This document shows, one piece after another, positions 361 through 20,250 of a stretch of DNA of 64,000 bases (its first letter is position 1; each line of letters begins with the position of its first letter). Origin of the DNA: Porphyra umbilicalis (lineage: Eukaryota; Rhodophyta; Bangiophyceae; Bangiales; Bangiaceae); NCBI GenBank assembly GCA_002049455.2, contig KV918777.1, forward strand, positions 1 to 64,000, read 5' to 3'. The notes under the pieces are model-generated. The model searched no databases. It was not told the origin of the DNA and worked only from the letters and a program-made list of their open reading frames with translations. The position numbers and the translations under genes were made by a program.

Positions 361-718
361 GACGCTGTCGCGAGAAAGCGGCGCGCCGCTCGGCAGACTG
401 CCACCACCTGGTGCGAGCTTGATCCCGATCGAATCGACTTGATCCGTAATGTTTCGGGCACTGCGACGCTGAGAAGCGCTATGTGCGCTCAACCCATCGA
501 TCACTGCCCTTTTTTTTTCGAGCCTACGAGCGCAACTGGCACCAAAAGAAGCGTCCTCCCTAGAGCTTCCCTGCAGGTATGTTTATTCCCTGTTTCGGCT
601 ATATATCAAGGCAACGGCGTTCGTGGGGAGAAAAAGCAATGGGCAAACAAGCTGGAATCGACGATTCTGGTGATCCACTTTGGGCGTCGTTGATCCAGAA
701 TCGCGTCAGGGACAATAC
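361..718 (+). repeat. Dispersed DNA-element copy (right end), without foldback insert
   Basis: This stretch matches 42780-43279 closely, except that the later copy carries a 132-bp foldback element in the middle. It ends in CGCGTCAGGGACAATAC (702-718). The same 17 bases stand at 43263-43279 and, inverted, at 41495-41511, so this is probably the right terminus of a non-autonomous DNA transposon whose left part is missing or diverged here. No coding capacity is recognised. Confidence 0.7.
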
Positions 719-1344
719 CGCACGCTGGTGCGCCTGGAGGCCACCTCCACCACCGCCATGAACGCGGCGCCCTCATTGGCCGAGAGAGCTGACGCTGGTC
801 GCCATGGTCGCCATGGCGCGACTTTTTTTCTCGACTTGATGGTGATGGCCCTGTGCGCCCCCTCACGAGCGGATCGCTCACGGCCATGGCCTGGACTGGA
901 GAAGCAAGAAACACCATCATGACCACCCCGCACCCTCATGCCCTTGGGTCGCATGTTTTTCCTCCTCACAGAGCGCACGGTGGCCGAGGCCGTCAAGCCC
1001 AAGAAAAGGGTTGGTCACCCCGCGCGCGGGCCCGCCACCGGGGGGGTCGGCCCGCCGCCGCCGCCGACCGGGCGCGCCGGGCGCCCGCGCGGGCGCGCCG
1101 CCCCCGGCGGCGCGGCCGCGGTCGCGTGCCCCCCCCCTCGGGGCCACCGCCCAACACACGTTGCCCGCGCGACCCCGACGTGGCGCCGCCGTTTGGGCGC
1201 TAATGATGCCTAAGCGGATATTGGGACGGGACCGTCTGCAACCAGCATCTGCCACCACACGTGCCACTGCCAGATTTGCAGGATACCGAATGAATACAAA
1301 CTTCCGTGGTTAAAATTTAGCCGCTGCCCCCCTGTCGACAGCGG
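719..1344. other. Intergenic, GC-rich, no gene seen
   Basis: Short overlapping ORFs exist on both strands, but none has a recognisable domain. The 1020-1150 part is an extreme GC tract. It leads into the promoter of the AAA+ ATPase gene. Confidence 0.4.
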
Positions 1345-1352
1345 TATAAATA
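1345..1352 (+). promoter_or_regulatory. TATA box candidate for the AAA+ ATPase gene
   Basis: TATAAATA stands out in a GC-rich context about 150 bases before the ATG at 1503. An earlier in-frame ATG (1364) lies only 12 bases after it, so that ATG is unlikely to be the start. Confidence 0.5.
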
Positions 1353-1502
1353 CGGACCGGTCGATGAGACTACGGCGACCGCCGCCGACGGGCGTCGACG
1401 TCACACCGAGGCGCCCTCGTGCGAGACCGCGCGGCTCGCTCGGCGGTGCGCGGGTGCGCGCGGTGCCGCCGCCCTGTCGTTTTGCCCCGCGTCTGCAGCA
1501 CC

Positions 1503-2567
1503 ATGCCCCCGCCGTCGCCCTCGCCGCGCGGCACGCCCCGGGGTGGTCGTTCCGCGCGGGACCGCGCGGCGCTTGCCGCCGTGCGAGACGTGGCGTTGCG
1601 CTTGGACGGGCGCCTCCACACCCTGCCGCCGGCGAGTGCCGCGAGCGCCGCCAACCGCGTGCCCCCCCCCCGCCCGTCGACGCAGGTGGCTCGCCGGTGC
1701 GCTCCGTCGGGGCCAAGCGCGCCCGCACCGACCGGTCAGTGTCGGGCGGGGCGACCAAGCGCCGCCGGCGGGGCGAGAAGCGTATTTTTCCCGAGCCCGA
1801 GCCCCCCGCCCCGCTCCCGTGGGCAACGGTGGCGGGGCACGACGCGCACGTGTTGCGGCTGCGCGAGGTGCTGGCGCTGCTCACCGCCAAGCCGCGCGGG
1901 GGAGGTGTCGGGCGGCCCCTGCCCTTTCCCCGGGGTGTGCTGCTGACCGGTCCGCCCGGGACGGGCAAGACGCTGAGCGTCCGGGTGCTCGCCTGACACG
2001 CGTGGGCGGCCAATGGTGGCGCCTCCGTGCCTCTGTACCTCATCCGCGGCGGCGAAATCCTCTCCAAGTACGTCGGCGAGGGCGAGCGCCGCCTCCGCCG
2101 CCTGTTTGACGCTGCGACCGCGGCGGCCCCGTCCATCTTGTTTTTCGACCAAGTCGACGCCCTCGCGGCGACGCGGGACGACAACCGCGACCACTCGCGG
2201 GTCGTCAACACCTTTCTCGCCTTGCTCGACGGCTTTCGCTCGCGCGGTCGCGTGTTGGTCCTCGCCGCAACCAACCGGGTGGACCTGTTGGACTCGGCGT
2301 TTCGTCGTCCGGGCCGGTTTGACTTGGAGCTCGACTTTCAGCTGCCCGACGCGTCCGACCGCCGGCGGCTGATGGAGCTGCACGCAGGCACGTCGGCAGA
2401 CGAGACGGCGGTCTCGTACGTCGTCCGACGCACAGACGGCTGGTCGGGAGCGGAAATCCGGGGCCTCGCCACCGAAGCGTGTGCTGCGCGTGGCGCCGGA
2501 CCGACCCGCAGTGGCTCGAGGCGGTGGCGACCGCCGCCACAGACCCGGCGACAGTCGGGGGTGGTGC

Positions 2568-2599
<32 letters not shown>

Positions 2600-3675
2600 C
2601 CGCGGCCGCTCCCAGACGTGACGCACGCGGACTGGGACGTGGCGCTGGCCTCCCGAGCGCAGACCGCCCGGGCGGGGGTATCCCCGGCGCTGCACCGGCC
2701 GCTGCCGTTGCGCCTGAGCGCGCTCCTCGAGCCGACCGTGTCGGGGTGGTGGGGGTCCTCGACATGCGCTTTCCGCTGGACAAGCTGACCACCCCCGGCG
2801 CCGAGTGGGCCGCCCAGGCCGTGGGCGGGCCGACGTCGAGTGCGTCTGCCGCCGCCATGCTCGCCGCGTGGCCGGTCCTCCCGCACCGCCTCTGCATTGC
2901 GGGGCGTGCGGGCATGGGGCAGTCGCTGGTTGGGGCTGCGGTGCTGTGCCACCTGCAGTCCCTGCCCGTGTTTGACGTCGGCTTCCTCTCCCTCACTGCG
3001 AGTGGCACCGACGGGCAGCTGCCGCTGCTGCTGTCCACGGTGGCAGCGGCCGTCCGCGTCGCGCCGTCGGTCCTGTACATGCCCGACGCCGAGATGTGGA
3101 TGGCCGAGTCTGCCGCCGCCGCCGACGGGCCGCCCACCGCGCTGCTGCGCAGCGTGCTGGCCCGCATCCCCGTCGACACGCCCGTGTTGGTGCTCGGCAT
3201 TGCCAACGCGACCGAGGACGTGACAAACGCGTGGGCGCCGACGTGGTCGACGGTCGTGCGCATGGGCGGGGCGTCGGAGCAGCGGCGGCGGCAGTACTGG
3301 TGCCCGGTCGTCGACGCGCTCAAGGCGGTCGTGCGCAAGCACAAGACCGGCGTCGCGCGTGCCCGCGTCGCCGACTTGGACGTGGCGTTGGACGGCGTGC
3401 ACCTCACGCACGCACCCGTGGACGAGATGGAGCGCGTTTTTCAGCAGCTCCTCGACGCCCTCGCGAGCGTACACGAGGCAGCAGCACCTGCGGCGCACGG
3501 GATCGACGCGTGGGTGGCGACGGTGTTGGCGGCCATCGACCAGCTGTCTAACAGCGGCGGCCGCACGTCCCTCGGTGGCGCACGTGCCGCTCGGTCGGCC
3601 TCGCACGCACCGGACGGTGTGGCTGCTGCCGCATCTGTGGGGCACCGCGCCGGTAGCCGCGACACAAACGACTGA
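1503..3675 (+). CDS. ATAD2/Yta7-type AAA+ ATPase, reading frame interrupted
   Basis: A two-AAA-domain ATPase of the ATAD2/Yta7 family, nuclear chromatin factors that act on histones. The N-terminus is basic (KRARTDR, TKRRRRGEKR), a probable nuclear localisation signal. AAA1 has Walker A GPPGTGKT (1949-1972), pore region SKYVGEGER, Walker B LFFDQVDAL (about 2138-2164), sensor AATNRVD and arginine finger RRPGRFD. The linker VTHADWDVAL followed by a degenerate second AAA domain (RLCIAGRAGMGQS ... APSVLYMPDAEMW ... VDTPVLVLGIANA) is the ATAD2 layout. I see no C-terminal bromodomain. Oddities: the Walker B glutamate is glutamine (codon 2150-2152); an in-frame TGA (1994-1996) follows Walker A where arginine is expected; and the frame changes in the C run at 1662-1671 and in the long G run near 2570-2594. 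It is either a decaying paralogue or a gene with homopolymer errors. The ATG at 1503 fits the TATA spacing. Confidence 0.8.
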
Positions 3676-4592
3676 CGCGACGCCTGTCCCACCGTCGGAC
3701 GAGGCGTCGACCGCGCCGACACCCCGAGCGGAGCGGGGCAAGCGCAACACCCGTCCCGTTCGCCGCTGCAACATCATGCTGTGGGGTGGGGGGGGGGTGT
3801 GGCAGCCACAAACCGCCGCAGCCGAGCGGCATGCGTCGACCGTCCATTGTTCCTGCGAGTGGGGTGGTCCGTGCGCGTGGCACGGTGTGCCGACGTAGCG
3901 TGGATGCGATTGGCCGAGGTCGTCACGTGACAGTATGCCGGTACTGTACGGATCCCCGCGTACGTTTACACCACTGTATACCGTCTGTGCAGGGAGATTT
4001 TCCACGTCTTGGGTGTTTGTAATCCCTCTTTTGCAACAACTGTCAAACGAGATGTCGACAATCCGGCAACGCCTCGCCCGGTGTGGCGACACACGCCGCT
4101 GCCAACGGTCGCGTGGTCTGTCCCGCATGGCTGCACGCGTCTCGGCCCGCGCCAGGGGGTGTGCACAGGCGTCGCCGCTCCATCGCGTCGGCTGCCGCGC
4201 CAACGCGCCCATCCGCACGTGCGTGGCGTGCGGGCGCGCACGGGTGAGACCCCCTTGTCAGCCGTGATTCGCTTCGCCCTGTGCCGTCCAAATGATTACG
4301 GGAGCAACCCCGTGCGGCCGATGCGGACAGACCACACGAGCACTACATACGAGAGGCGGGCTACAAGCTTCTCACAGAGACCTCGGGCTGACCCTGCCCT
4401 TTCCCCGGCGCAGTGGCGCTTCACTGGGGGTGGGACGCAAATATCATTGCTGGCAATGGGGACCCACATTGGAATCTGAAATCGGCCTGTGTGTGGTCAC
4501 CAGGGCCGATTTTTTCTTCGAGCCCATGTGGATTACTTTCCGGCCGACGGGGTGTTTTGCTTACAGGTTGGAGCGTCTCAACGCGATGAAGA
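3676..4592. other. Intergenic, no gene seen
   Basis: This holds the 3' flank of the ATPase gene and mixed sequence with only short, unconvincing ORFs. Confidence 0.35.
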
Positions 4593-5276
4593 ATGCCCGC
4601 CGTGGCTTCGAGCTCACCGCACCGGAAGTGTGCTGCACATGACTGGTGGAACGCGGCGCAGCGCACTCCACATCGGCATGTGAGGATGGAAGCCAGTCCT
4701 CCTCAGCGACCATGGCATCGTTTGCACCCCCCCCCCCCCCCCCCCCGCCACCGCCCCCCCCCCCCCCGCCGCCGCCGGCCTTGCGCTGCCGCTCGCCGCG
4801 CACCTCCCACTGAAAGGCAACCCTTCTTCGTGTTCTCTGGATCGGTTTTCCCCTTCCGCGCTTTGTTTTCAACAACCAGTCTGCCGCGCCATCGACGACA
4901 ACACCGCCAGGGAGCTGCTTGGGGCCGCCAATCTCGTCGTCAGCTGCTGCTCGACGGGCGGATGGGCTCAGTAGCCTTTGTTGCGACTGCAACTGACGAC
5001 CTGGACGCCCTCCATGTGGCGGCTGAGCTCGGCATCAAGGGGGTGGCGACCTACGGCGGCATCTCGGAGGCCGGAGCGCCACCCCCCACAAGCTGGAATG
5101 CAGGGACGTTTGTGATTAGCCAAGAGGAGCAACAGCAGTGCATGTCGGTTCCCATCTGTACAGAACGTGCCCGTACGGCCCGCAAACGTACAATCGGCGC
5201 ACTCGTTTTCTCAGAATATTTGAGAATCCTGAAGAAACTCTCGATACTCACTGCTCTGGGCTACTTTACCACATGA
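4593..5276 (+). CDS. Hypothetical ORF, unknown function
   Basis: An open frame of 227 codons that I do not recognise. The first half is low-complexity and crosses long C runs at 4728-4770, so it may be spurious. The second half (about 4960-5150) has ordinary protein-like composition, with segments such as DDLDALHVAAELGIKGVA and SWNAGTFVISQEEQQ, and ends in a basic/hydrophobic tail. An antisense frame (4561-4992) is also open and cannot be excluded. There are no neighbours that suggest a role. Confidence 0.2.
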   Translation: MPAVASSSPHRKCAAHDWWNAAQRTPHRHVRMEASPPQRPWHRLHPPPPPPRHRPPPPRRRRPCAAARRAPPTERQPFFVFSGSVFPFRALFSTTSLPRHRRQHRQGAAWGRQSRRQLLLDGRMGSVAFVATATDDLDALHVAAELGIKGVATYGGISEAGAPPPTSWNAGTFVISQEEQQQCMSVPICTERARTARKRTIGALVFSEYLRILKKLSILTALGYFTT

Positions 5277-5474
5277 GACGACTGAGAAAGGAAGAATATC
5301 CCAAGAAAACGGAGAATCTCGATTCTGCACGAACCTGGCGGTTGGAGAGCCAATGGCGCGTCGAAGATACGCACTCAGCAGCTGTTTGATGCTGTTCTAG
5401 ACCAATGGTTGGCCTGTTTTACAAAGCAGTCCCGGTCTTGGCCGATGAGGACAAAAATGGGGGATCAGCAACAC

Positions 5475-6281
5475 ATTGAGGGAGAATGTCTTTTCGAAGC
5501 TGTCATAGAATTCCGAGCTTCGTCACTGTAATGGCGGCTAGTCGTCCTGTCCCTTTGCTCTTGTGACCACCATGGCGTTGGGTCCCTTCATTCTTACCAA
5601 GTTGTCGCTGTGTCTTTTTCTCTTCTCCAGTTGTCCCGTCCCCATTGTCGGTCCCCATTTGATATGTTCATCTTTGTCGTATGGTTCTCAGTATAAAACA
5701 ATGGTCAGCAAAGCAAACAAGCACAGCTCCCGGCGCGCCGCCACACGCAGGGGGAGGTCGACAGCGGAGGCCGCCAGATGCCTCAAGAAATGAACAAGAG
5801 ATGAGTAAACACTCCGGCAGGGACCGGGGGGGGGAACGGGGAAGGACGTGAAACACATGGAGGAAAAAAACGAACGTCAGTACAGCTCGACTTGCATGGC
5901 GTGCGGATGGGGGGAGGAAGGGGGGCAAAGAATGGGGCAGATGCGGCGCGCGGGCGCAAAGAAAGGGGGAGGGGGGGGGGGCAAAAAAAGGGGGCGGCCT
6001 TGGTGTGGAGTGTATACTGTACAGTGGGGGTTCCCCGAAGGTAGCTGTAAACGCTTTTGGCGGAATCTGTAATCGCTTGCGTGTGTAATCCATCTGGACC
6101 AGAGCGATCGTGAGCCATCGAATGCTGAAACGTGGATATTCTTGATTGGGCTTGCAGATGGGACCATCCAATCAAATGGCCTAGAGGGTGACCATCAAAC
6201 CGACTAGGGCCATCCATTCTATGCAACGTGGCTGCCTGAGCGTTGTGAACCCGAATGGATCCCTACTAGAAGCTTCGCTAA
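5475..6281. repeat. Dispersed ~0.8-kb repeat, copy 1
   Basis: This matches 35300-36230 over most of its length, with small indels and a block of more than 100 bases present only in the second copy. Both copies end in the same bases (..AGAAGCTTCGCTAA) followed by an A-rich stretch, as expected for a retroposed 3' end, although a truncated DNA element is possible. Just before it, GGGGGATCAGCAA (about 5459-5471) resembles the end of the 399-bp TIR element at 53046-53444. No coding region is recognised. Confidence 0.65.
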
Positions 6282-7211
6282 TAATAAAAAGAAAAAAAGA
6301 TGAGCTTCACACTGATGGGGCTGCCGGTGCTTTTCCGCTCACGCATGAAGCCTCAGCGGTGCTCCCCCCTCCGGTGAGCCACCCCTTCCTCCTTCAACCC
6401 CACGCAGGCGCTCGTCTGACAGTCAAAGGGGGCAAGGGGCGGGAGGGTTGTGGAAGGGGGGGGGCGTAGATCCGCTCCCACACGGCGCAGCGTCAGCCGC
6501 CTTGCGGGACACTGGTACGTACCCACCCTACAATGTACAGTCGGGGCACCGTCACGGTGCTTCGATGGAGCCCCCAAACGTCACCCGCCTTTGCCCCCTT
6601 TACGGTAGTATTACTCTTGACAGTCCACCCCGCCGAGGTCGCCCGCCTTGTGCGCTCAGGCCGAGTTGGTGGCCCCGCCGGCGGTGGGGGGAGATGGGCG
6701 GGGGGGCAGGGCGGTGCCGGGCCACCCGCTGCGCGTCGTGGCGGAATCCGTCCGCCGCCATGAGGCGGTCGGCGCTGAGTGACAGCGGGGGAGGGCGGTG
6801 ATGGGAACGAGGCAGGTACAGGATTGGATCCCCGTTGGGGAACACTGTCATTGCCGCAGCGGCCGCCCGCAGGGCGCTTCTGGGGGGAAATAGTTCGGGG
6901 CTACAGGGCCAGCACGCGCTGCGGCTCCACGGCGTGAGCCCCCAGCGTGGCTGTCTTGCCTACAGGTCCCGGGCGGGACCGCACGGCGGGCGGCAGCCGC
7001 CGTCTGCTCACGCGCAGTAGAAGAGGGCCCCGACTGTGGACACCTCCCGACTGTAGCCTCCACGTCTCCCATCTCCATCCCAACACCCGCACACCCCGCC
7101 GTTCCGCCTGTCCTTTCCCTGCACCCGCCCCCCCTCCGCCTTCCCTGTCCACTTTTCAACGTTGTAACCCCTCCCCCGGCTTCCATTGTGTCTACACCCT
7201 CTCTTTCCTTC
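6282..7211. other. Intergenic, upstream of the glycine-rich protein gene
   Basis: Several overlapping short ORFs exist without recognisable domains. The last about 150 bases are pyrimidine-rich and precede the ATG at 7212, so they may be the 5' leader of that gene. Confidence 0.35.
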
Positions 7212-7635
7212 ATGGCTTCGTCCAAGGTTGTTGCCGCGGCGGCGGCGCTGGGGCTTGCCTCCGTCGTAGCCGTAAGCACCGTCGGTGCGGCGTCGGCGGC
7301 CACCGCAGCCACTCCGTCCAATACCGCTGTCGGCGGCCAGGCGGCAGCCGCGACCCTCACCGGTGCGCCGTCGGCGCGCACGTACGACTCGGGCGGCTAC
7401 GGCAAGTAGGTCAAGCACTGCAAGAAATACTACGAGCGCTCTCACGAGCCGTGAGACCTCGACTGGGAGGACCACATGGCCGTGACCGCCCGCCCGGCTG
7501 GGTACAGCGGCTACACGTACAAGGGCGAGAAGGGCGGCCGCTAAGGTGGCGGCGACGGTGGCGGCCACGGTGGTGGCGGTGGCGGCGGAGGTGGCGGTGG
7601 CGGTGGCGGCGGTGGCGGCGGTGGCGGTGGTGGAT
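7212..7635 (+). pseudogene. Secreted glycine-rich protein gene, 5' part (split by transposons)
   Basis: The start has a clear signal peptide (MASSKVVAAAAALGLASVVA..., Ala-rich cleavage region) followed by a Tyr/Lys/Gly-containing region and then a pure Gly tract with occasional Asp and His. This suits a cell-wall or extracellular matrix structural protein. The frame stays coherent through three in-frame stops: TAG (7407-7409), TGA (7452-7454) and TAA (7542-7544). The Gly tract breaks off at the left end of the DIRS element. Gly-His-rich coding resumes after two further insertions, at 13864-13892 and 14284 onward. I read this as one host gene disrupted by three elements. It is probably a dead copy, since stops of all three types lie upstream of the insertions. 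Confidence 0.6.
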
Positions 7636-7943
7636 ACCCCTCCGTATTGTCTTGTCCGACGGTTATTTAATACCACGGGCGTCGACTAACGCGGGGTGGG
7701 GCGAAAGAACTTAGCAACGTGTTCGGGGGATGGGCGCGTTCCCATTCCCCACCGGGGATATTCTGAGAGGATCGGATCCCACAGGAAATCCGTTTTCTGT
7801 GGCACAGAGCTGCCCTTGGCAGCCCCCCCCCTGTAACCACACAGACGGGGGGTCCTGATCCGCCTCCAGACCGCTTAAGGAGACGCCGCCCGCGGCATCC
7901 CTGCGGCTCCCCCGGCTCCCCACGTCCGCTGTTTTTCCGCCTC
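7636..7943 (+). repeat. DIRS split direct repeat A1
   Basis: 308-bp left terminal repeat, which I find identical to 12261-12568, including a run of nine C. Confidence 0.9.
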
Positions 7944-8004
7944 TGACCAGGCGCAAAAACGGCGTCCACCGATCATTGGTGGGCGTGACGGAGCTGTGGA
8001 CCTG

Positions 8005-9048
8005 ATGTCGTCGATCTCGACGCCTACCCCCCTGGCGGGGAGCGGCTTCTTTGACTTTTGTCTCGCCGCGCCGGCCCGCTCGCGGGCTACGGTTACGACG
8101 GGGGTGATCACCCTCCCCCTTCTTGTCCTGTTCCTTTTCCCCATCCTCGCCGACCTCCCCGTCGCAGAGTGCGCGCGCGGCGCGGGTGGCGGTGGTCGCA
8201 AGGCCAAGGGCCCGGCATCTGCCGGCGGTTCGGCGGCTGGAGGCGACGCAGACTCCCCCCCCCCCCCCTCGCCGCCCGACGGCTCTGCCGAAGGCGGTGG
8301 GGGAGAGGGGGGTGGCGGGGGCGGACACGGCGGCGGCGGTGGCGGCGGCGACGGCGGCGGTGGTGGCGGTGGCGGCGGTAACCCTCACGACGGCAGCGTC
8401 GGCGACGACGACGACGACGTCACGGACTCGGACGACGACGACTACACGCCCGGAGACGGGCGGGTGGCACCATACCGCAGCGCCTTCGCCTACACCGAGA
8501 TCCGCCGGGTCCGGAACGTGCGCCCGGTGATCCGCGGTTTTTTCCTCACGCCGGAGGGGGAGGCCCACACCAAGTACCCGCACCCGTTTGACGTGGTCGG
8601 GGACACGCGCTACATCAAGGTCCAAGCCAAGCTTTCGGGCAAGCCCGCGCACGAGCTCGAGTTTGTCTACAACGTCGCCGCCTGGTTGCAATTGCTGCAC
8701 AACCGCGTGCTCAGCCGCGAGGAGGAGGTCGAGGACGCGGCCGGGGCGCCCTCGGCGTTCGACGTCAACACGCGGGTGGGGCTGCACCAGCTCTACACGT
8801 TGGTGTCGGCGCGCTACAAGGTATTCACGCTGGCCACCCACGACACGCCAGCGTCGGAGACGTTGCACACCCTGGTGTTTGGGCACGGCGACCAAGACGC
8901 CTACTGCCCCACCTGGGACTACCTGGCGACGGCGCAGAATTCCAGTCTCGTCAAATCCGCGGCGCGGGCGCACGGTCGACGCTATGCCGACGGCATCCGC
9001 GGGGACAAGAAGCCGCCCAAGGGGGGGCGCCCCACCCGGGGTGCCTAA
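8005..9048 (+). CDS. DIRS ORF1, gag-like protein
   Basis: First ORF of the retrotransposon. It has a hydrophobic N-terminal stretch, then a long Gly/Ser/Asp/Pro low-complexity region (about 8190-8450), then an ordinary folded-looking C-terminal region (about 8470-9030) with no family I can name. Its position before the RT ORF is that of gag in DIRS elements. The ATG at 8005 is preceded by an in-frame GTG at 7996. Confidence 0.6.
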   Translation: MSSISTPTPLAGSGFFDFCLAAPARSRATVTTGVITLPLLVLFLFPILADLPVAECARGAGGGGRKAKGPASAGGSAAGGDADSPPPPSPPDGSAEGGGGEGGGGGGHGGGGGGGDGGGGGGGGGNPHDGSVGDDDDDVTDSDDDDYTPGDGRVAPYRSAFAYTEIRRVRNVRPVIRGFFLTPEGEAHTKYPHPFDVVGDTRYIKVQAKLSGKPAHELEFVYNVAAWLQLLHNRVLSREEEVEDAAGAPSAFDVNTRVGLHQLYTLVSARYKVFTLATHDTPASETLHTLVFGHGDQDAYCPTWDYLATAQNSSLVKSAARAHGRRYADGIRGDKKPPKGGRPTRGA

Positions 9049-11281
9049 GCCGGGCGGCCTGCCGGCGACGCCGACCCCCCGCCGGACACGGGGGTCAGGG
9101 GAGTCCTCTCGCTTGCCGGGGGACGCTCCGCCAAAGAAGGCAAGCAAGCGCCGCCGCCCCGACTCTCGGTGGCGGCGGCAAGCCCGTCAGCAGCACGAGG
9201 CGGACGCGGCGGCAGCCGCCGCCGCGCCCTACGCAACGCTGCTGGCGGCGCTGAGGACTTGGGCGGCGATGGGAGCAGCGTACTGGGTGCTTCGGACGAT
9301 CCAGTTTGGCTTCCGCGTGCCCTGGGCGTCGCGTCCACCGCCGACCAATTCCAAGGGCTACGCCATGCCCGGCGACGAGCAGCTGTGGTCCGAGACGGAG
9401 GTCGCGCGGTGGGTGGCTGCCGGGTACGCCAAGAGGCTCTCCCCCGCGGCGGGCGCGGGCGCACCGTGGGTGTCGCCGACGTTCGTGGTGTACGGCTCCA
9501 AGCCGCGGCTGGTCATCGACCTGCGTCTGATCAACCTCCACATCCGGCGGCGCATCTTCCAGTACCAGAAGCTGCCGTCGTTCCTGTCGACGCTCTTACC
9601 GGGCGACCACCTCGTCTCTTGGGACGTGTCGGACGCGTTTTACCACGTCCGACTCCGACCGGCGGACCGCAAATACTTTCGGTTCGTCGTCGCGGGGGTA
9701 GTTTACGAGCCGCGGGTGCTACCATTTGGCATGCGGCTCAGCCCGTGGGTCTGGACGAAGCTGATGCGGCCAGTTGTGGCGGCCCTGCGGTTGAGGGGCT
9801 TCAAGATCAACGCCTACGTCGACGACTTTGCCGCCAACGGGCGGGGGTCCCGCCCCTCGACCAAAGCAACGGCGACGGCGGGGCGCGTCGAGATCCTGTC
9901 TCTGTTCGAGCGGCTCGGCATTCAGGTGCACCCGGCTAAGGGGGTGCCGGTCGGCACGACCTGTCTCCCCCTGCTGGGATACTTGGTGGACACGGCGCGG
10001 CGGCTCGTCTTGCTGCCGCCGCCGCGATTGGCCAAGCTCGTTGGCGGAGCCAAGGCACTGCTGTCGGCGTCCCGCCTGCGCTCCCGTCGCGTGTCCTCCA
10101 AGGCCTTGCAGCGCTTTTCCGGGATGGCCGTGTCGTGCCAGCTGGCCGTCCCCTCGGCGCGCTTCTTCCTTCGGCGCCTGTACGACTGCCAGTGCCTGAC
10201 GGGGCCGAGGTCGCGCCTGTCGCACGGGGCGGTCAGCGACCTCAAGTGGTTTACCAAGTTGAACACGGAGCCGGGCGTCGGGCGGGCCTTGTGGCCCAAG
10301 ACGTTGGGGGAGCTGACGACCGACGCGTCCCCCTACGGGTGGGGCGGGCATTGGCACCACCTGCTGCCAGCGGCGGGCTTCTTCACCGTCGCGCAACGCG
10401 ACCTCCATATCAACGTGAAGGAAGTGGTGGCGGTGCGTTTCTGTCTCCTGGCGTTCGGCGCGCAGCTCCTGGGCGAGGAGGGCCTCCTTCGCTTGCGGGT
10501 CGACAGCCGGGTGGCGATGCACGTTATCAACGGCTTCTCCAGCAGGTCGCCGGCGCTGATGGACGAGCTACGCAAGCTGCACGCCGTCGCCCAGCGGTAC
10601 CGCGTGACGCTTCGGGCGTCCTGGTTGCCCTCCGTAGCCAACGTGTGGGCGGACGCCCTGTCGCGGCAGTCCGACCGCCACGACTGGCGGATTGCCGACC
10701 GGACCTTCTCGGCGTTGCAGCAGCGGTACGGTCCGTACACGGTCGACCGCTTCGCCAGTCCCCTGAACGCGCGGTGCCCAAGGTTCAACACCAAGACGCA
10801 CGCTCCAGGGACGGAAGCGGTGGATGCCCTGTCGGTCGGGTGGGGCGCGGGGGAGAACAACTGGATCTTCCCCCCGTTCAACCTGGCCGAGTTGGTCGTC
10901 GCCAAGATCTGCGTGGACAAGGCGACGGTGACGGTGATCTTCCCGGTGTGGGGGGCTCAGCAGTGGTGGGCACCCACCGTCGAAGCCGCAAACGAGGCGT
11001 ACCTGCTGCCCAAGACGGCGGGCCCGTTCCCAGGCGGACCCGCCCGGGGTACAACCTCGCCCCCTCGGTGGCGGCTGGCAGTCTTCCGGTTCGTGGGCGG
11101 CGGCCTTCCCCCGTCGGGGATCGCCGCCAAGCGGGCCCGCCTCGAGCGGGCTGCTTACCGGCGCCGCCGGTTCAACGGCCGGCGGGGGCGGCAGAGTGGC
11201 GCCGCGACCGGCGTCGCGTGCTGGCGCGTGCCGCGACCGGACGCGGCGCTGATGCCGCTGCCGCTCGCTGGCTCCGCGTAA
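9049..11281 (+). CDS. DIRS reverse transcriptase-RNase H ORF
   Basis: The RT core includes LVIDLRLIN, SWDVSDAFYHV, LPFGMRLSPW and the catalytic YVDDF (about 9817-9831). It is followed by an RNase H domain starting TTDASPYGWGGHW (about 10318) with a later VDSRVAM motif. The frame overlaps the end of ORF1 and the start of the recombinase ORF, as is usual in this order, where the products are made from overlapping frames. The first codon is uncertain; the boundary given is where ORF1 ends. Confidence 0.85.
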
Positions 11282-12201
11282 ACAGCGTGGTCGACGGGAC
11301 GGCGGCGCGGTACGGCGGCTTGTGGGGGCGCTTTGCCGGCTACTGTGGTACGCACGGGCTCCGCGCCCTGCCCGCCTCCACCGAGACGATACTCGCCTAC
11401 GTCGGGCATCTGTGGCGCCGCAACTCGGTCGTGGCGGTTTCCCTCAAGCCTATCCTCGCCGCCATCCGCAAGCGGCACGTGGCCGCCGGGCAGCCAAACC
11501 CCTGCGACCACGCCTCTGTGCGCGAGGCCAAGGCGGGATTCCGCCGCGCCGGCTTGCTGTACCGGCCGGTTATCAAGCCGGTGCGGGTCCCCCTCCCCTC
11601 TGCGGTTGCTTGGGGGCTCGCTGAGCTCGCGATGCGCTCGCCGCGGGCCCGCCGCCACCAGCTGACTGCGGTGGTGCTCCAGTTTTGGTGGATGCGCCGC
11701 GCGGGCGACATCACCCGTTTGACGCTGGCCGACGTGGACGTGCGCGCCGACGGGTCGGCGGCCTACCAGGTTCCGCGACACAAGACGGAGGCGGACCGGG
11801 GCCTCATCGCCCGACGCATGCCCCCGTCCGTACACGGCGGGGTCGACCTCCCCTTCGCGCTCCTCGCGCGCCTCGTCGCGGACTTGCGCGCCGCGCACCA
11901 CCGGCCGTCCGCGCGCCTCTTCACCGAGTGCGCGTCGGCCGCGGCGTCGGCGCTCATCACCACCTGGTTGCAGGCCGGTCTGCACCTCTTGAAGGTCACC
12001 CCCTCCGTCGGCACGGTGTATGCGTCCCACTCCCGCAAGTCGGGCGGCGCCACGGCGGCCAATGCCGCGGGTGTCAACCGCGGCGCCATCTCGGCGCTGA
12101 GCGCGACGACGCAGCCGACGTTGGCGGCGTCGTACATCTCTGCGCTCACGGTTGCATCCAAGTATGATCGGTTTTTCTTCGCCCGCCTGCTCCCCCGATA
12201 G
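11230..12201 (+). CDS. DIRS tyrosine recombinase ORF
   Basis: A phage-integrase-like tyrosine recombinase: an N-terminal SAM-like region (GLWGRFAGYCGTHGL), the first catalytic arginine in MRRAGDITRLTL, HSRKSGG for the His-x-x-Arg box, and a C-terminal Tyr in the TLAASYISAL region. It overlaps the RT ORF in another frame, so the N-terminal limit is approximate. It carries out integration of the DIRS circle and replaces a DDE integrase. Confidence 0.85.
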   Translation, partial: AATGRGADAAAARWLRVNSVVDGTAARYGGLWGRFAGYCGTHGLRALPASTETILAYVGHLWRRNSVVAVSLKPILAAIRKRHVAAGQPNPCDHASVREAKAGFRRAGLLYRPVIKPVRVPLPSAVAWGLAELAMRSPRARRHQLTAVVLQFWWMRRAGDITRLTLADVDVRADGSAAYQVPRHKTEADRGLIARRMPPSVHGGVDLPFALLARLVADLRAAHHRPSARLFTECASAAASALITTWLQAGLHLLKVTPSVGTVYASHSRKSGGATAANAAGVNRGAISALSATTQPTLAASYISALTVASKYDRFFFARLLPR

Positions 12202-12226
12202 TGCAGGCGGGCGTACTCTTTCTGTT

Positions 12227-12258
12227 TGGCATCCGCGGGCCCCCTCTCTCCTTAGTAG
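12227..12258 (+). repeat. DIRS repeat B1
   Basis: 32 bp repeated at 12728-12759. It lies directly before A2 and so forms part of the internal complementary region used to circularise DIRS cDNA. Confidence 0.8.
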
Positions 12259-12260
12259 GA

Positions 12261-12568
12261 ACCCCTCCGTATTGTCTTGTCCGACGGTTATTTAATACCA
12301 CGGGCGTCGACTAACGCGGGGTGGGGCGAAAGAACTTAGCAACGTGTTCGGGGGATGGGCGCGTTCCCATTCCCCACCGGGGATATTCTGAGAGGATCGG
12401 ATCCCACAGGAAATCCGTTTTCTGTGGCACAGAGCTGCCCTTGGCAGCCCCCCCCCTGTAACCACACAGACGGGGGGTCCTGATCCGCCTCCAGACCGCT
12501 TAAGGAGACGCCGCCCGCGGCATCCCTGCGGCTCCCCCGGCTCCCCACGTCCGCTGTTTTTCCGCCTC
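12261..12568 (+). repeat. DIRS split direct repeat A2
   Basis: 308-bp copy of A1, two bases after B1. Confidence 0.9.
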
Positions 12569-12727
12569 CCTCCCTCCCACCCTGGGTCGGAGCGTGCGCC
12601 CACTGGTGCGCACAAACCATTGTTTTTCGTACAAAAGAGGGCTCTTCTTTGTACTACTTCTTTACTTCTGGACGTTTCCGGATTTTCTTTTTTCGTCTGC
12701 AGCTCAACTATTAAATACAACGTCACA

Positions 12728-12759
12728 TGGCATCCGCGGGCCCCCTCTCTCCTTAGTAG
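12728..12759 (+). repeat. DIRS repeat B2 (right end)
   Basis: 32-bp copy of B1 at the right end of the element, about 160 bp after A2. Confidence 0.75.
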
Positions 12760-12771
12760 TAACGGGCACGG

Positions 12772-13863
12772 CACAGTAGATCTTAGACCAGGTACCTGGA
12801 AGACCTTGAATTTGCTTGCATCTGGCTTGCACCGGTCGGTGCAAGGTGTCGATTCGGACCCTCTGAGGGCCGTTTTCTCGTACAAGCGCCATACAAAGGC
12901 GGGCTCCTCGGGGCGCAAAACGGTCTCCAGAGCCCATTTTGGTACCGTTCGCACTGCAGAAGAGGTGCATGTAAGTATATAAAAAACGAGCCCTGTCCGT
13001 CGTTTTGCGCACCGATGGCGGCCACAAACGTGTTTCTTGCATCCAGAAACTTGTATCTGGGACACTGTTTTCGTTCAAGCAGCTTGCACGAGATCTGCGC
13101 GGATTCGTGCAGAGACCTTGCACCGGGTGTAGTCCTTTCGCACCGAAGTGGACATTTCTTGCATCACCTGGCAGTGTCTGCTTTTCTCTGCGCTCGTCAC
13201 TGCTGGTACTGCTTCCGACCAGGACACCTGCCCTATGGATAATCAACCCAGTAACCTACACTACCCTACCCTCCCCGCACCTTCACCCCCCCCGCATGCA
13301 TATCACTCGTGCTGCCAGAAACGGCAGCTTTATAGCCCCACGCTACTCAGGCCGAACGGGCGACATGCACGCCCCTCAGATGAGCGGAAGCTGGTCTCTG
13401 TCGTCTCTAAAGATGCGAGAAGCACCTCATCGCATTGGTACACCTGTACTTTCGCTGGGGGGTGGTGGTCTGGAGTTGGATGCTTGACGTTTTGTATACC
13501 CTGCGTAGACTGCCCTGATGGGCAGTGAGGTGGGTTAGGACTGCTGTGGCTCAGTCTCTGTGGACGGGCACTGCCCCTGCAAGCCGCAGCTTTACTCTTC
13601 TCTATCGAGAAACGAGCCAAACGAGCTGCATGTAGCGCATGTACGACCGCCGTACAACCAGATACAGACAATCTGTACGGCACCGTGCAAGACTCATGCA
13701 ACGATTCGGTGCACTTCGTGCAAGCGTCGAGCAAGCGCCATACAAGAACTTTGTACGAAAAGCACCCGATCCGTACAAGAAATCGAGGCTTGTATCAGCT
13801 TGTATCCAACTGTATTCAAGCAGATACAAGATCTTCCAGGGACATGGTCTAAGCCCCACTGTG
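12772..13863. mobile_element. Non-autonomous DNA transposon, CACAGT ends, 3-bp duplication
   Basis: The left end reads CACAGTAGATCTTAGACC; the right end, reverse complemented, reads CACAGTGGGGCTTAGACC, and similarity continues inward for about 60 bases (CTGGAAGAYCTTG...). A direct CGG flanks both sides (12769-12771 and 13864-13866). CAC-starting inverted ends with a 3-bp duplication suggest a CACTA/EnSpm-like element. The inside (about 1.1 kb) has repeated TGTATC/GTACAAG words, possibly subterminal transposase-binding repeats, and no recognisable transposase. Confidence 0.65.
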
Positions 13864-13892
13864 CGGTCACGGCGGCGGCGGTGGTGGTCACG

Positions 13893-14283
13893 GTTGTGAG
13901 ATGGGGTCTGTAAGCCTCGGATTGATCCAGCACCTGATCCGGACTTGACCCGGCCTGTGGTGGTCAATCGTCAGTCCTCGACCAAGAGCAGGTCGGACGC
14001 CGGGCTGGCGTACGTGGTGCAACGGACTTCATCAAGGGCCGGGAGAGGGATAGGAGAGGGCCGGGAGAGGGACGGGGGAGGGACGGGGGAGGCGCGCGGG
14101 GCGGGCGGGCCAGTGCGCGCCGGGCTGAGCCGGCAAGGGTGCGCGGGCGGCGTGGGTCTGCACACTGCTGGGCGTGCTGTGGTCGTGGGTGGGAGTGACC
14201 CTCGACGGGGAATAAGAGGCGGGACAGTCGAGTCGGGCGGGACGACGACGTGGGTAGGAAGATAGAGCCTTTTATCTCACAAC
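13893..14283. mobile_element. 0.39-kb element with 7-8 bp target duplication
   Basis: The ends are GTTGTGAGAT and ATCTCACAAC. GGTCACG(G) stands directly before (13886-13892) and after (14284-14290). A 7-8 bp duplication with short inverted ends points to a hAT-like non-autonomous element; the family is not certain. It holds GGGAGAGG-type repeats at 14040-14095. It interrupts the same Gly/His coding tract as the DIRS element. Confidence 0.6.
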
Positions 14284-14661
14284 GGTCACGGCCACGGCTG
14301 GTACAAGCTCGTGGAGAAGCACGACGGGCGGTACAAGTACTACAACAGCCCCCTGTGCCGGGCGCTCATCCACATGGCCGCCGCCGCCACCCGCCCCGTG
14401 TCGCTCTCGCTCGCCGCGGCGGTGGCGGCGCTACACCCGCGCCGCGCGGCGGCTCGCGCGGCCGCTGCCGCCGCCGAAGCGGCGGCCGCCGCCGTCGACG
14501 GGCATGGGCCAGTAACATCCCTGCCGCTCTTTTTGCTTCCCCTAACCGTTTTCCCCGGGGGGGCTGCCGCCCAACGTCCCTTCCCCCCCTTGCGTTGGCC
14601 GCCTTTGGCCCCCGCATCGCCTCCGCTGCTGCCGCTTGCCATGGCCCCTCCAACAATTTAA
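14284..14661 (+). pseudogene. Secreted glycine-rich protein gene, 3' part
   Basis: Coding resumes directly after the target duplication as Gly-His-Gly-His-Gly-Trp-Tyr-Lys, then a Tyr/Lys-rich patch (DGRYKYYNSPLC), echoing the Tyr/Lys patches in the 5' part. After about 14370 the frame becomes Ala/Pro-rich and may no longer be the true protein, so the real stop is uncertain. Joining the flanks across the three insertions restores an uninterrupted Gly/His tract, which is the main reason to treat 7212-7635 and this piece as one gene. Confidence 0.5.
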
Positions 14662-15794
14662 GAACGCTCGGCCGCCCCCCCCGCGGCTGGGTAGGCGGCG
14701 CCGCCCCACCGCCATCCCGGTGGCGGCCGGGGGGTCGGCCGCCAGGTCCTCGGAAGACGCCTTCGTGATGCCGCTAAAGGAGATGACAAACACGGGCAGT
14801 GACCGCCACCAGGACAGCACGGCCGCGTCATCAGCCGCGGCAGGAGCGGGGGCCGCCGGGGATGTGGCAGCCGCTGCAGGGACAGAAGCGGAGGTTGTCG
14901 GAGTCCTTCAGGTCAGAGGGCTCCGGCACAGACTCCTCCGAAGACGATGACGACGGAACCTAGCCGCTCCAGCCGACGCCGACCGTCCAGCGCCCGGCCC
15001 AGCGGGCTCACGAGCGGAGCGCGCACGGCTTGTCGGCTCCTTGGCACCGCCGGTAGTGGCAGACGCCTCGCGACTGCTTCCGCAGCCCCCCGCACCACCA
15101 TACTCGGTGCCGCCGCCCCCTGATGCCGTCTTGAAATCCGGTCCCCCCGCACGCAGCCGCTTCGGTGCCGACATGCTGGGGAGGGGGCAGAGCTCGACAG
15201 GGACACGGATCCCCCGACCAGCAGCCGTCTGGTGGCGTGTGTGTGCCCGCCCTGTCACAAACCTAGTGCACATGGAGTCGCCCCGCCAAGACCGCACCAA
15301 TCGCTACCGCCGTAGGTGGGCGACACAAGCAGCGGCGGGCGAAGCCTCGCCGTAGCCGCCGCCTTGCAACCCGGCTGCCGCCGCTGGGCCCAGGCAAGGG
15401 CCATCCACTGTCGCTACGCACGCCGCGCCGCGAGAGAGGTCCGCCCACCTGTTCAAGGGAGAAGAGCCAAGCGAGACGGCGCAAGGAACAACGCGTCCGT
15501 GTCAGTGCCGCCACGCGCTCCAGTGTTAGGTGTGCGCGTCACAGGACCGGAAGCTGTATGCTGCGCAATCAAATCACGTATGTATGATTGGCCCGACTAC
15601 GTCGTGAGACCGGTCAAAGACACTTCTTGGCCAGATCGGGACCATCTTGGCTGTTGCCCAATGCGCACGATCAGCCTTCAACTTAAGCTGTCTTCTTCAC
15701 GTCTACGCGACCAGTTGGTTTGTGTTGCTACGCTGCTGGCGGCGCTCCCACCCCCCCAGCGCGGCGACTTGCACCGTGGCACGCCCCTCCGCCC
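14662..15794. other. Intergenic, no gene recognised
   Basis: Short frames occur on both strands. One ends in an acidic Ser/Asp-rich tail near 14900-14960, but none can be defended. Confidence 0.35.
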
Positions 15795-16434
15795 TCAGAC
15801 GCGGGGCACCACGCTCACATCGTGTGGCATCCCCAGCAGCCGCCGCAGGTTCACCACCTTTTCCCGCAACGCCAGCCGGTGGACCCCCCCCCCCGGCACG
15901 CGGGCGGGGAGCGCGCCCTCCCCCCCCCCCCCCCCCCCCCCTCCCCCTTCCCCATACAAGTACACTTCCAACCAGCCGAGCACCGCCGCCGCTCGCTCGG
16001 CGCCGCGCCCCTCGGTGGCCCCCCACCCCCGCCGCCCCCCCGCCAACACCGCGCCCGCGAGCGCGCCGAGCACCCGCCCGTCGTCGTGGCGCCGCCCGTG
16101 GCGCGCGACCATCCCCCGGTACACAATGACCGCCCGCCGCGGCTGGCCGCCCACCCCACACGCCGTCACGAGCGACGCGTACGCGCGGGCCGAGGGCATC
16201 GCCGCCGCCGCGGGGGGCCACCGCGCGTCGCGCAGCAGCCGAAAGGCGCCGTCCACGTCGCCGGCGGCGGCGACGGCGGCGAGGGCCGACTCGAGGGGGG
16301 GGACCGCCGCGCGGCCGTGGAGGTGGGGGGGGGGAGGGGGGGCGGGGGGATCACGCCGCCCCCCGGGCGGCCGTCGGTGGGGGGGCGGGCCGCGCCGGCG
16401 GTGCTGACGCCGCCGCCCCCGCCCAGTGCCGCAG

Positions 16435-16465
<31 letters not shown>

Positions 16466-17632
16466 GCGACCGACAAATGTGTCGAGCACCCCGAGCGCCA
16501 CCGCCGGCGCGCGGCACTGGCCCGCCGCGTCAATGACCGCCGCCACGACCGCCGCCGGCGGCGGGTGCCCGTCGGCGGCCGCCCGCTCCGCCGCCCCGAC
16601 GGCGGCGCGGAGCTCGTGGAGCGCCGCCCAACAGGCCACCACCGCGGCGCGGGTGGCGCCGTCGCCCGCCGCCGCGGCGGCCACGCCCGGCACCACCGCC
16701 GCACCCGCCGCCGCCGTCGCCGCCGTCGCAGATACCGCCGCGCGCGCCGGCGGCGACCGCACGGGCCGCCCGCCCGTGACGGCCGGCGCAGCCGCCCCGC
16801 CCCGCTCCGCCGTGCGCGTCCACGGGCGGCGCCCATAGCTGCCATAACCGCCATCGCCGCCGCCATCGTCGCCGTCAGACGGGGGCAGGCCGAGCGCCGC
16901 CTCCGCGTCGGCGGGCCGCCGCGCGCGGCAGAGGAGCTCGACGAGGGCGGCGGCGACGCGGGGCGGCAGCCGCCGGGGCGCCGCCGCCGCCGCCGGCGGC
17001 GCACCGTCCCCGCCGCTGCCGCCGGCGCGCGGCGCGTCGGGCGCCGCCGCCACCGCCGCCACGGCCGCGTCGGCGAGCACCCCCGGTGGCGGCACGCCGC
17101 CGCGGCGGCGGCCGCTGGCGGCCGCCGCCCGCGCGGCGGCAATGACAAACGCGGCACGCCCCGGGTGGGTGCCCCCCGCTGGCAGCGCCGCCGCCACGGC
17201 CGCCGCGTCGCCGAGGCGCCCCGCGTGCGCGAGCACCCCCGCCGTTGCCGCCGCCGCCGCGGCCGTCGGTCGCGGCAGCGTCCCAGCCGAGGTCGTCGCC
17301 CCGCCGCCCCGCACCTGCACGGCGTGCAGTGCCGCCGCCGCGTCGGCGGCGGCGGTCGCCAGGCGCCGCCGTGGCGCCCGGTCGGCGGCGGCGGCGGCTG
17401 CCAGCACCGCCGTGGCGGCGTCGGCCAGCTCCGCCGCCGTCATGCCCCCGTCGCCGCGGTCGCCGCCGCCGCTTGACGCCACGGGCCGGGCGGCGGCAAT
17501 GGCGGCAATGGCCGCCGCGACGCTGTCCACGGTCGGCGGCACGCCAGTGCCGCGGGGGCGCCCGCGGCGCGCGGCGCCGCCGGCGGGGCGCCCAAAGCGG
17601 GTGCCCGGCGGGTGCGCCCCGAGGGTGGCCAC
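15795..17632 (-). CDS. Pentatricopeptide-repeat (PPR) protein, frame change at a homopolymer
   Basis: An Ala-rich helical-repeat protein. PPR units are best seen near the C-terminus: DGAFRLLRDARW... then ARAYASLVTACGVGGQPRRA and VIVYRGMVARHG. Weaker units lie upstream, for example ATRAAVVACWAALHELRAA and AAVVAAVIDAAGQCRAPAVA. PPR proteins bind organellar RNA and act in its processing or translation. The frame changes within the G runs at about 16320-16350 (plus strand), between two well-conserved stretches. The N-terminus is uncertain: an ATG at 18002 begins a transit-peptide-like Ala/Arg/Pro sequence but is separated by more homopolymers. No intron is apparent. Confidence 0.65.
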
Positions 17633-18002
17633 GACCGACGCGGTGGCGCTGAGGATGGGGCACGGAGAGACGGGGGGGGGGGGGAGGGGGAGGGCGCCAC
17701 GCGTCGTTGGGGGGGGGGGCGCGCCGCCGCCGCGTCGCCGGGGGGAGGGGGGGGAGGCGCCGCCCAGGGGCGCGCGCGATCACGGGGGGGGGGGGGTGCC
17801 GACGCGGGCACGCGGGGGGGACCCACGGCGACGCAGCGGGGGGTGTGGCGTGGGGGGGGGGGGGGGGGGGGGGGCGCCGCGTAGTGCCGGCGGCGGCACC
17901 GGCGGCGGCACCAGCGACGGGGTGGCGGCGGCCGCCGCGGCGGCCGATGGGGGCGGGGGTGACAAAGGGCGCCGCGGGGGGCGGACGCCCACCAGGCGCC
18001 AT

Positions 18003-19079
18003 GGGGGGGTCGGCCTGAAACGAGCGCGCCGTGGTTGGAGGGTGCTTGGTGGGGGGGGGGGGGGCGGAGCTTGCTCCGCAGCAACGACCGAGCGCGTGGC
18101 GACGACGGCGGCGGCCGGCCGGCGCGGAGCGGGCGGACCTGCCGTCTGGGGCAACGGCGCTGTGCTGCTTAACTGGGGTCGGAGCACATCGGCCTTTTTC
18201 CCGATGCAGAACACACATTCTGGTGTGTGTGGCCGCGGCATTTTGACTCGGCATTGGGCGTTCGATGGGAGTGAAGCTCGGCACATTCTGCGAGGGTCGA
18301 TGCACAATGCCCAAATGTGTAATATCTCCCTTCATCGCGGTGCTGATACCTCTGTGAGGGCCAATAGGCTGGCGCCTCTCGGCGGCCAATGGTTCAATGG
18401 GAGCCATGCAGCACCTTCCGTGGCGGACGAGACCTGATATGAAACATGATGTCTGACCCGCCTCCGGGAATTGGGCAAGTTCTTGCTGCAGTTCGACGTG
18501 GAGGACGAGTATTTGGTCGTTGCCCAGCCATGTAGTATCTGAGGATCTCAACAACGAAGCAAAATTCTGTTTCTGGCGAGAGCTGAGGAGCTCTCTGCGC
18601 TCTCAGAGCTCCTCGCGAATCGACCGGCGGCGGCGCTGGGCCGCCTCCGCCGACCGGCACCAGGTGCCACGGGTGCTGCCACGGAGGGTGACACGTGCCC
18701 CAGTGACAATACGTAGTTGCCTGTGGTCAAGACCGCCATGACCATGAGCACGTCCACCGTACCCTCCTCGACCCCTGCCCTGCCTGCCGTCCCCGCCGCG
18801 CCCACCGCCCCCCCCCCCCCCCCCGCGCCCGATGCCGCGCTTTCATCCCCCTGGCGTTGCCTTGCTCCGCCTCCCCCCCCTCCTGGAACTGGAACTGCTC
18901 CCCCGTCCGGCACCCCCCGACCACCAAACGCCAGCCGGGTATCGCGGTCGTCGGCTGGGCGCACGGGCACCGGTTGTGCGGCCCCACCCCCACGCGTGGC
19001 TGCGGCCCCCGCGCTCCGCCCCCTCCCCTCCCACCTCTCAGTCGATACGGCCGCGGGGTGCTCTTCCGCAGTGCACCCA
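18003..19079. other. Intergenic, no gene recognised
   Basis: G-run-rich sequence upstream of the PPR gene, then mixed sequence. Nothing is supportable here. Confidence 0.35.
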
Positions 19080-20250
19080 CGGTCCGGCGGCTGCGGCGGC
19101 GGCGACGCCAGCGGGTGCGGTGTGGGGGGGCGCCGGCAGCGCCGCCGCCGCGCGGCCGCCGCGCCGCTGCCGCCGCGGGTGCCCGTCGCCCCCCCCCCTC
19201 GCCCCTCGCTCCCTCCCCCTTCCGTTCCCTGCCGGCCACACCCCCGTCGTCGACGTGGCCACCGGGTGTGCCTGCGGGCACGGTCTGGCGGCTACGGCGG
19301 CGACGACGCCGCCGGGTGCACGGTGGGGGGGCGCCGGCACCGCCGCCGCCTCGCCGCCGCCGCCGCGGCTCCTCGTCGCCAGGCGGTTGCCCCTCCCCTC
19401 CCCCCTCCCTCCCCCCTCTCTCCCCCCTCGCTCCCCCCTGCCTCCCTCTCCCTGCCGTCCCCCGCCGGCCACACCGCTGTCGTCGTCGTGGCCACCGGGC
19501 GTGCCCGCGGGCACGGTCTGGCGGCTACGGCGGCGGCGACGCCGGCGGGTGCGGGGTGGGGGGCGGCCGGCAGCGCCGCCGCCACGCCGCCGCCGCCACG
19601 CCGCCGCCGCCACGCCGCCGCCGCGGCTGCTCGTCGCCGGGCAGTCGTCACCCCCTCTCCCCGCTCCCTCCCCACTCCTTCACCCCTCCCTCCCTCCCCC
19701 TGCCGTCCCCCGCCGGCCTCGCCGCCGTCGTCGTCGCGGCCACCGGGTGTGCCCGCGGGCACGGTCTGGCCGCTGCGGCAGTGGCGACGCCGCCGGGTGC
19801 GCTGTGGGGCGGCGCCGGCAGCGCCGTCGCCTTGCCGCCGCCGCCGTGGCTCCTCGTCGCCGGGCGGTCGCCCCCACCCCTCCCCCCTCTCTCCCCCCTC
19901 CCTCCCCCCTCCCTCCCCCCCCCTGCCGCCCCCCGCCGGCCACACCGCCGTCGTCGTCGTGGCCACCGGGTGTGCCCGCGGGCACGGTCCGGCGGGTGCG
20001 CGGTGGGGGGGGGCCGGCAGCGCCGCCGCCACGCCGCCGCCGCCAAGCTGCCGCCGCGGCTCCTCGACGCCGGGCGGTCGCCACTCCACCTCCCCCCTCT
20101 CTTCCCCCTCCCTCCCCCCTCCCTCCCTCCCCCTGCCGTTCCCCGCACGCCACACCGCCGTCGTCGTCGCGGCCACCGGGTGTGCTCACGGGCACGGTTC
20201 GGGGGCTGCGGCAGTGGCGACGCCGCCGGGTGCGCGGTGCTTGCGGACCC
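19080..20250. repeat. Tandem repeat, ~205-245 bp unit, about five copies
   Basis: Each unit contains GCCGGCCACACCGCCGTCG, then GGCCACCGGGTGTGCCYGCGG, then a Gly/Arg-codon GC block and a CTCCCCC-rich spacer. Copies of the first motif start near 19229, 19465, 19709, 19934 and 20140, so spacing is irregular (206-244 bp) because of the CTCCCCC spacer. The long ORFs across it on both strands are by-products of the repeat. Confidence 0.75.

Follow-up and report, generated by a model that had tools for sequence, protein, structure and literature searches.

The window analysed here, a stretch of 64,000 nucleotides of Porphyra umbilicalis DNA, opens contig C17 (488.5 kb) in a genome of 83.8 Mb in 665 contigs. 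Twelve matches to phycobilisome linkers, spread over C665 (taken as the plastid contig) and seven other contigs, identify the genome as that of a red alga. At positions 7212-7637 it carries the 5' part of a gene for a secreted Cys/Gly/His-rich protein that has acquired in-frame stops. Downstream follow, all on the forward strand, a DIRS retrotransposon (7636-12763), a DNA element with CACAGT...ACTGTG ends (12772-13863) and the solo long terminal repeat (LTR) of a Ty1/copia retrotransposon (13895-14281), with short pieces of Gly/His-coding sequence between and behind them. An earlier note on this DNA had seen here one gene with a signal peptide and a glycine tract, hit in that tract by elements of three superfamilies, and had suggested that such tracts attract insertions or that a dead gene had become a landing site.

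A secreted-protein gene and its paralogues

The frame that opens with the ATG at 7212 encodes a signal-peptide-like start (judged by eye, without a predictor), a region with a Cys motif (VKHCKKYYERSHEP), the residues ARPAGY and then a poly-Gly tract. The left remainder of this tract, a run of GGN codons at 7545-7634 apparent from the translation and from tandem repeat rows, has a density of CNG triplets of 0.154 per base; signal peptide and Gly tract are thus present much as the earlier note had described them. The same frame is broken three times, which the earlier note had not mentioned, by TAG at 7407-7409, TGA at 7452-7454 and TAA at 7542-7544 (translation and letters checked), and the first two of these stops lie within the stretch that can be aligned to paralogues. 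Searching the genome with the left part returned three more loci, on contigs C395 (E 2.6e-15), C6 (E 1e-7) and C220 (E 3.9e-4), which in tblastn on the window gave E 2.8e-12 (48% over 79 columns), E 2.8e-5 and E 1.9e-6, respectively. The C395 (191 aa) and C220 (321 aa) proteins are both stop-free. Three in-frame stops make the copy in the window a pseudogene within a small family of secreted Cys/Gly/His/Tyr-rich proteins, provided that they are not errors of the assembly. Either this copy lacks a C-terminus or the C-terminus has changed beyond recognition: a search with the C220 protein gave no match to the family C-terminus on C17 at E ≤ 0.01, and the frame of the right flank, open as far as 14661, runs on without a recognisable family C-terminus. 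From the C220 protein search came one further locus, on C94, matched in the Cys-rich C-terminus only.

Two of these relatives are themselves irregular. The family member on C6 (L011, around 667935) has an in-frame stop before its Cys-rich C-terminal part and may be a second broken copy. On C94 (L071, around 21393) the Cys-rich C-terminal module comes, in another frame, after a stretch that by eye resembles a RING finger, and looks fused or rearranged.

Behind the third element, at 14282-14358, lies what is most likely the 3' remainder of the gene, reading GHGHGWYKLVEKHDGRYKYYNSPLC from 14284 (letters checked). After its Gly/His tract C220 reads YGFVAKHGGRYKYYSK, and the right flank of the window reads YKLVEKHDGRYKYYNS; 10 of 16 residues are identical (pairwise E 1e-4), and an equally good score was reached by one of 5000 shuffles and, among 7500 control segments drawn from the window, by a single Gly-rich one. 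In proposing a single interrupted gene, the earlier note had named, as a finding that would speak against it, the lack of any paralogue joining the signal-peptide/Gly part to the YKYY part. Such a paralogue exists, for one frame of 321 codons in C220 unites signal peptide, Cys motif, Gly/His tract and GRYKYY motif.

Three mobile elements and the virtual empty site

The first element has the split direct repeats A1-B1-A2-B2 seen in PAT-like DIRS tyrosine-recombinase retrotransposons, and the DIRS assignment of the earlier note holds. A1 (7636-7943) and A2 (12261-12568) are identical at 308 of 308 positions, B1 (12227-12262) and B2 (12728-12763, the right end) at 35 of 36. An open frame at 8588-11281 matches reverse transcriptase (RVT_1, E 6.3e-13) and a Dam-type methyltransferase (Dam, E 3.4e-11), both over the Pfam cut-off. 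The C-terminal part of a second frame (10135-12201), which has no Pfam match, is a putative tyrosine recombinase, judged from an HSRK...Y motif read by eye that we take to be a tyrosine-recombinase-like signature. At the circle-junction-like B1/A2 boundary the dinucleotide AC is single, and it is present at both ends of the integrated copy; one AC was therefore supplied by the target. AC alone is common to both ends, with no further target duplication, and assigning it at one end to the host yields the empty site GGA TAC GGG CAC. Among five right ends read, four including that of the window have TAAC and one has AAAC. A remnant of about 500 bp at C220:76650-77350 (L084) apparently retains just one A and one B repeat, as if a complete element had collapsed by recombination between repeats.

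The second element, 1,092 bp long, is flanked by CGG on both sides (12769-12771 and 13864-13866), as the earlier note had it, and its duplication is typical of its family. All 13 distinct full-length two-ended sites, that of the window included, start with CACAGT and have 3-bp duplications (four CGG, three CCG, three CAG, two CTG, one ATG); this sample was drawn from 63 matches, 30 of which became loci, by excluding one-ended, shortened and duplicate rows. A longer relative of 11,507 bp (C49:47137-58643; L100, L101) has the same ends with CCG on each side, and pairs of CACAGT ends about 11.5 kb apart also stand at C145:70013-81544 and C71:132286-143815. Four long frames from the C49 relative, two per strand, were compared with Pfam, which reported no transposase and one sub-threshold Kazal_3 match (E 0.059), and none of the 136 reported genome matches to the CACTA transposase PF02992 lies on C49, C145 or C71 (150 of 176 candidates scored; the coding sequence may be split). 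One C49 frame gave three weak matches in a Protein Data Bank sequence search (E 0.16 to 0.96, to stellacyanin and phytochrome), taken as chance, and eight pattern matches in IMG/VR, none of them confirmed. On C640 (8316-10541; L021) two copies, one with a CGG and the other with a CCG duplication, stand in a GC-rich tract with 43 bp between them.

The third element, of 387 bp, reads TGTGAGAT...ATCTCACA, with TG...CA ends, and is bordered by ACGGT on the left (13890-13894) and on the right (14282-14286). Related LTRs occur as same-orientation pairs, 6.2-6.6 kb from start to start, on C132, C102, C52, C175 and C215, and TG...CA was seen at the outer ends of both LTRs on C132 and C102. The sequence enclosed by the C132 pair matches, from left to right along the element, a zinc-knuckle (sub-threshold), an integrase and RVT_2, the last over the Pfam cut-off in two pieces; the integrase match (rve, E 6.3e-4), in the same frame upstream of RVT_2, is below it. 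Integrase before RVT_2 is the Ty1/copia order. Five of six two-ended copies have exact 5-bp duplications (ACGGT in the window, AGCAG on C269, ATGGC on C132, AGGCG on C102, ACACG on C45), and a diverged copy on C203 (L053) has ACATC against ACGTC, 4 of 5 letters. This sample of six counts L063 and L064 as one site and leaves out L051 (no 3' end), L052 (contig end), L054-L062 (3' part only) and the palindromic L065 and L066. On C298 (L065) the first 47 bases of the LTR form a short palindromic arrangement, possibly a hairpin-type derivative.

The earlier note had instead described a 0.39-kb element with GGTCACG(G) duplications. A terminal-inverted-repeat element of this kind is rejected in favour of the solo LTR: GGTCACG at 13865, 13886 and 14284 is a repeat of Gly-His codons and not a duplication. 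Of the three superfamilies that the note had counted, three kinds of element remain, the third being a solo Ty1/copia LTR.

The Gly/His coding resumes about where it had been reported, at 13864-13894 and again from 14282. The gaps in the gene are indeed mobile elements, but these do not stand back to back. Eight bp of host Gly-His coding sequence (12764-12771), ending with the left CGG, lie between DIRS and the CACAGT element. The latter is separated from the LTR by 31 bp, made up of the second CGG and the 28 bp of host Gly-His coding at 13867-13894 that end with the left ACGGT. When all three elements are excised the host reads ...GGGGYGHGHGGGGGGHGHGHGWYKLVEKHDGRYKYY... in one frame, in which the three upstream stops remain. 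The frame is kept at all three junctions, which by chance would happen once in 27, given the chosen DIRS boundary, and the insertion points, all in the Gly/His tract, fall within about 36 bp of each other.

The elements differ in how far they have diverged. A1 and A2 of DIRS have no difference in 308 bases; the window copy of the CACAGT element departs from the column majority at 66 sites in 1091, of which 14 are private to it, and the LTR at 8 of 387, of which 6 are private. Because its direct repeats are identical over 308 bp, the DIRS insertion is recent; for an insertion as old as the minimum decay of the gene (3 per 330 bases), the probability of finding no difference in the 616 repeat bases would be 0.004. 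Set against the three nonsense codons, this identity indicates that DIRS was probably the last to arrive, in a gene that was already dead, and here the earlier idea of a dead gene as landing site fits best.

Target sites, setting and competing explanations

The other idea of the earlier note, that Gly-coding tracts attract insertions, fared less well. With a GGN run defined as at least four GGN codons on either strand, such a run was found at 1 of 15 DIRS sites (60-bp left flanks; null 0.10), the site being that of the window itself; the other 14 sites have none, which has probability 0.22 under the null. The DIRS sample comprises 26 stretches from 42 matches and, with the window, 15 left flanks: L096 (match from position 3) and L093 (58 bases of flank) were included, and L073, L074 and L086 (match start off the repeat end), L098 (flank shared with L079) and eight A2 copies after B1 were excluded. 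For the LTR the count was 1 of 6 sites, again that of the window (120 bp; null 0.18-0.21). Both samples are too small to speak against a moderate preference. CACAGT elements had a GGN run at 6 of 13 sites (120 bp), compared with a rate of 0.234 for randomly chosen CNG sites (p 0.06), an excess that falls to p 0.13 without the window and to p 0.24 when the second C640 copy is also left out, so that an attraction of this family to GGN tracts is weakly hinted. The CNG density of the left tract, compared with 0.103-0.108 outside, implies that an element targeting CNG would land there about 1.5 times as often. These small samples, in tests of little power, thus gave no support to GGN tracts as a general lure for the three families, and in a literature search on glycine-rich proteins and target preference nothing relevant was seen among the titles listed.

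The neighbourhood is itself rich in repeats, which according to genome searches with stretches of the window cover at least 13.7 kb of positions 1-20,000 (counting 1203-6285, 15536-15701, 18148-20000 and the three elements). With 31 of 893 candidates scored in one search and 40 of 2044 in the other, the counts are lower bounds. The stretch 1203-6285, just 5' of the dead gene, is a high-copy repeat: at least 22 genome matches, at 94-99% identity, start at 1203, and the remainder recurs piecewise elsewhere.

We consider it probable, with good confidence, that the locus is a pseudogene in a transposon-rich stretch, and that the copia element, the CACAGT element and last DIRS accumulated neutrally in a dead, repeat-rich locus. 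The gene lost selection, as its three in-frame stops and the lack of a detectable family C-terminus show. A Ty1/copia element inserted with a 5-bp ACGGT duplication and was presumably reduced by LTR-LTR recombination to the solo LTR. The 1,092-bp element inserted at CGG, presumably mobilised by proteins of the 11.5-kb relative, and the many CGG sites of the GGC-rich tract may have modestly raised its chance of doing so. DIRS would have come latest, its tyrosine recombinase placing it in a TAC codon with no duplication. Apart from its tight clustering, the locus is ordinary in kind, a case of genome decay in a transposon-rich neighbourhood.

Several points weigh against this account. The stops might in principle be errors of the assembly. 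Private differences set upper bounds on age only, gene conversion may homogenise the repeats of one element, and either the LTR or the CACAGT insertion may be first. The right flank is linked to the gene by about 16 residues, and C220 was not among the genome matches to this flank by itself at E ≤ 0.1. Finally, triples of insertions within 36 bp would be expected 0.002 times locally, where 6 insertion points share the 6.3 kb that lie outside repeats. Genome-wide, the expected number of such triples is 0.03 to 27, depending on the assumed density (from one insertion in 10 kb up to one in 1 kb, half of the genome being taken as host sequence), and the cluster is a curiosity selected out of the whole window and no proof of a hot spot. 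The explanation that GGN or Gly-coding tracts are true hot spots for several superfamilies, through DNA structure or dense target motifs, would account for three elements in about 36 bp, for the CACAGT excess, for the two C640 copies in their GC-rich tract and for the raised CNG density. It is nonetheless improbable in our view: the window is the sole positive site for both DIRS and the LTR (small samples), the CACAGT excess fades as single sites are removed, and the C640 copies, which differ at 2 of 1091 bases, may stem from a single burst.

That both flanks belong to one interrupted gene is most likely, its best support being structural, namely the duplications at two junctions and the tract kept in frame. 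Were the flanks instead unrelated and joined by a transposon-mediated rearrangement, the left part alone representing a secreted-protein gene, the poor similarity of the right flank would be accounted for: in tblastn on the window its match has E 0.51 and ranks below two chance hits, the genome search with it returned just itself and a weak match on C4 (E 0.07), one of four paralogues (C220) shows YKYY whereas no frame of the C395, C6 or C94 loci has it, and the contig has no match to the family C-terminus. The DIRS junction, moreover, has no duplication and is bound by frame and tract only. We nevertheless judge such a rearrangement very unlikely, because CGG and ACGGT bind the two other junctions and the Gly/His tract runs through both short host pieces, in frame and in the same order as in C220. 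A gene that was alive until the LTR or the CACAGT insertion killed it, and that gathered its stops later, is a possibility of more weight, if still the less likely course. The private differences of both elements allow a sufficient age, and the present data do not distinguish death by either from death before all three; as the cause DIRS is unlikely, given its identical repeats.

The analysis amends the earlier identification of one element and illustrates how the question whether two flanks are one gene can be settled from a paralogue together with an in-frame virtual empty site; it also yields target-site data for three red-algal mobile-element families.

Comparison with known elements

PAT-like DIRS elements have split direct repeats, a reverse transcriptase with a Dam methyltransferase, a recombinase and no target duplication beyond two bases. 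The window element resembles them in its A1-B1-A2-B2 repeats, its reverse transcriptase and Dam domains, its recombinase-like motif and a duplication of at most two bases, and differs in being GC-rich and red-algal; in literature searches none of the titles listed was a description of a red-algal DIRS. The solo LTR agrees with Ty1/copia in its TG...CA ends and its 5-bp duplication, and a full copy has an integrase-like match ahead of RVT_2; there is no notable difference save that this match is below the Pfam cut-off.

The CACAGT element is less easily placed. The termini of CACTA/EnSpm elements are CACTA or CACTG. With these the family shares CAC...GTG ends, a 3-bp duplication and ends common to short and long members, and it differs in starting with CACAGT and in the absence of a CACTA transposase match for its long relatives; CACTA-like in the length of its duplication and in its ends, it is at most a candidate member of CACTA. 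That the CACAGT...ACTGTG family, with its 1.09-kb and 11.5-kb forms, CNG duplications and large frames without Pfam matches, represents a lineage of DNA transposons not described before, led by its CNG rule to prefer GGC-repeat coding tracts, is a speculative and rather doubtful proposal. If CNG targeting by the family did concentrate in GGC-repeat genes, the choice of targets by transposons would be tied to how secreted repeat proteins decay and vary. The Pfam matches included no Harbinger transposase. Its duplications nonetheless have a parallel in NuwaI (PHIS/Harbinger) transposons, for which PMC4482050 gives CWG duplications: both are 3-bp duplications of the C-x-G type, and the CACAGT family differs in also using CGG or CCG (7 of 13 sites) and, once, ATG.

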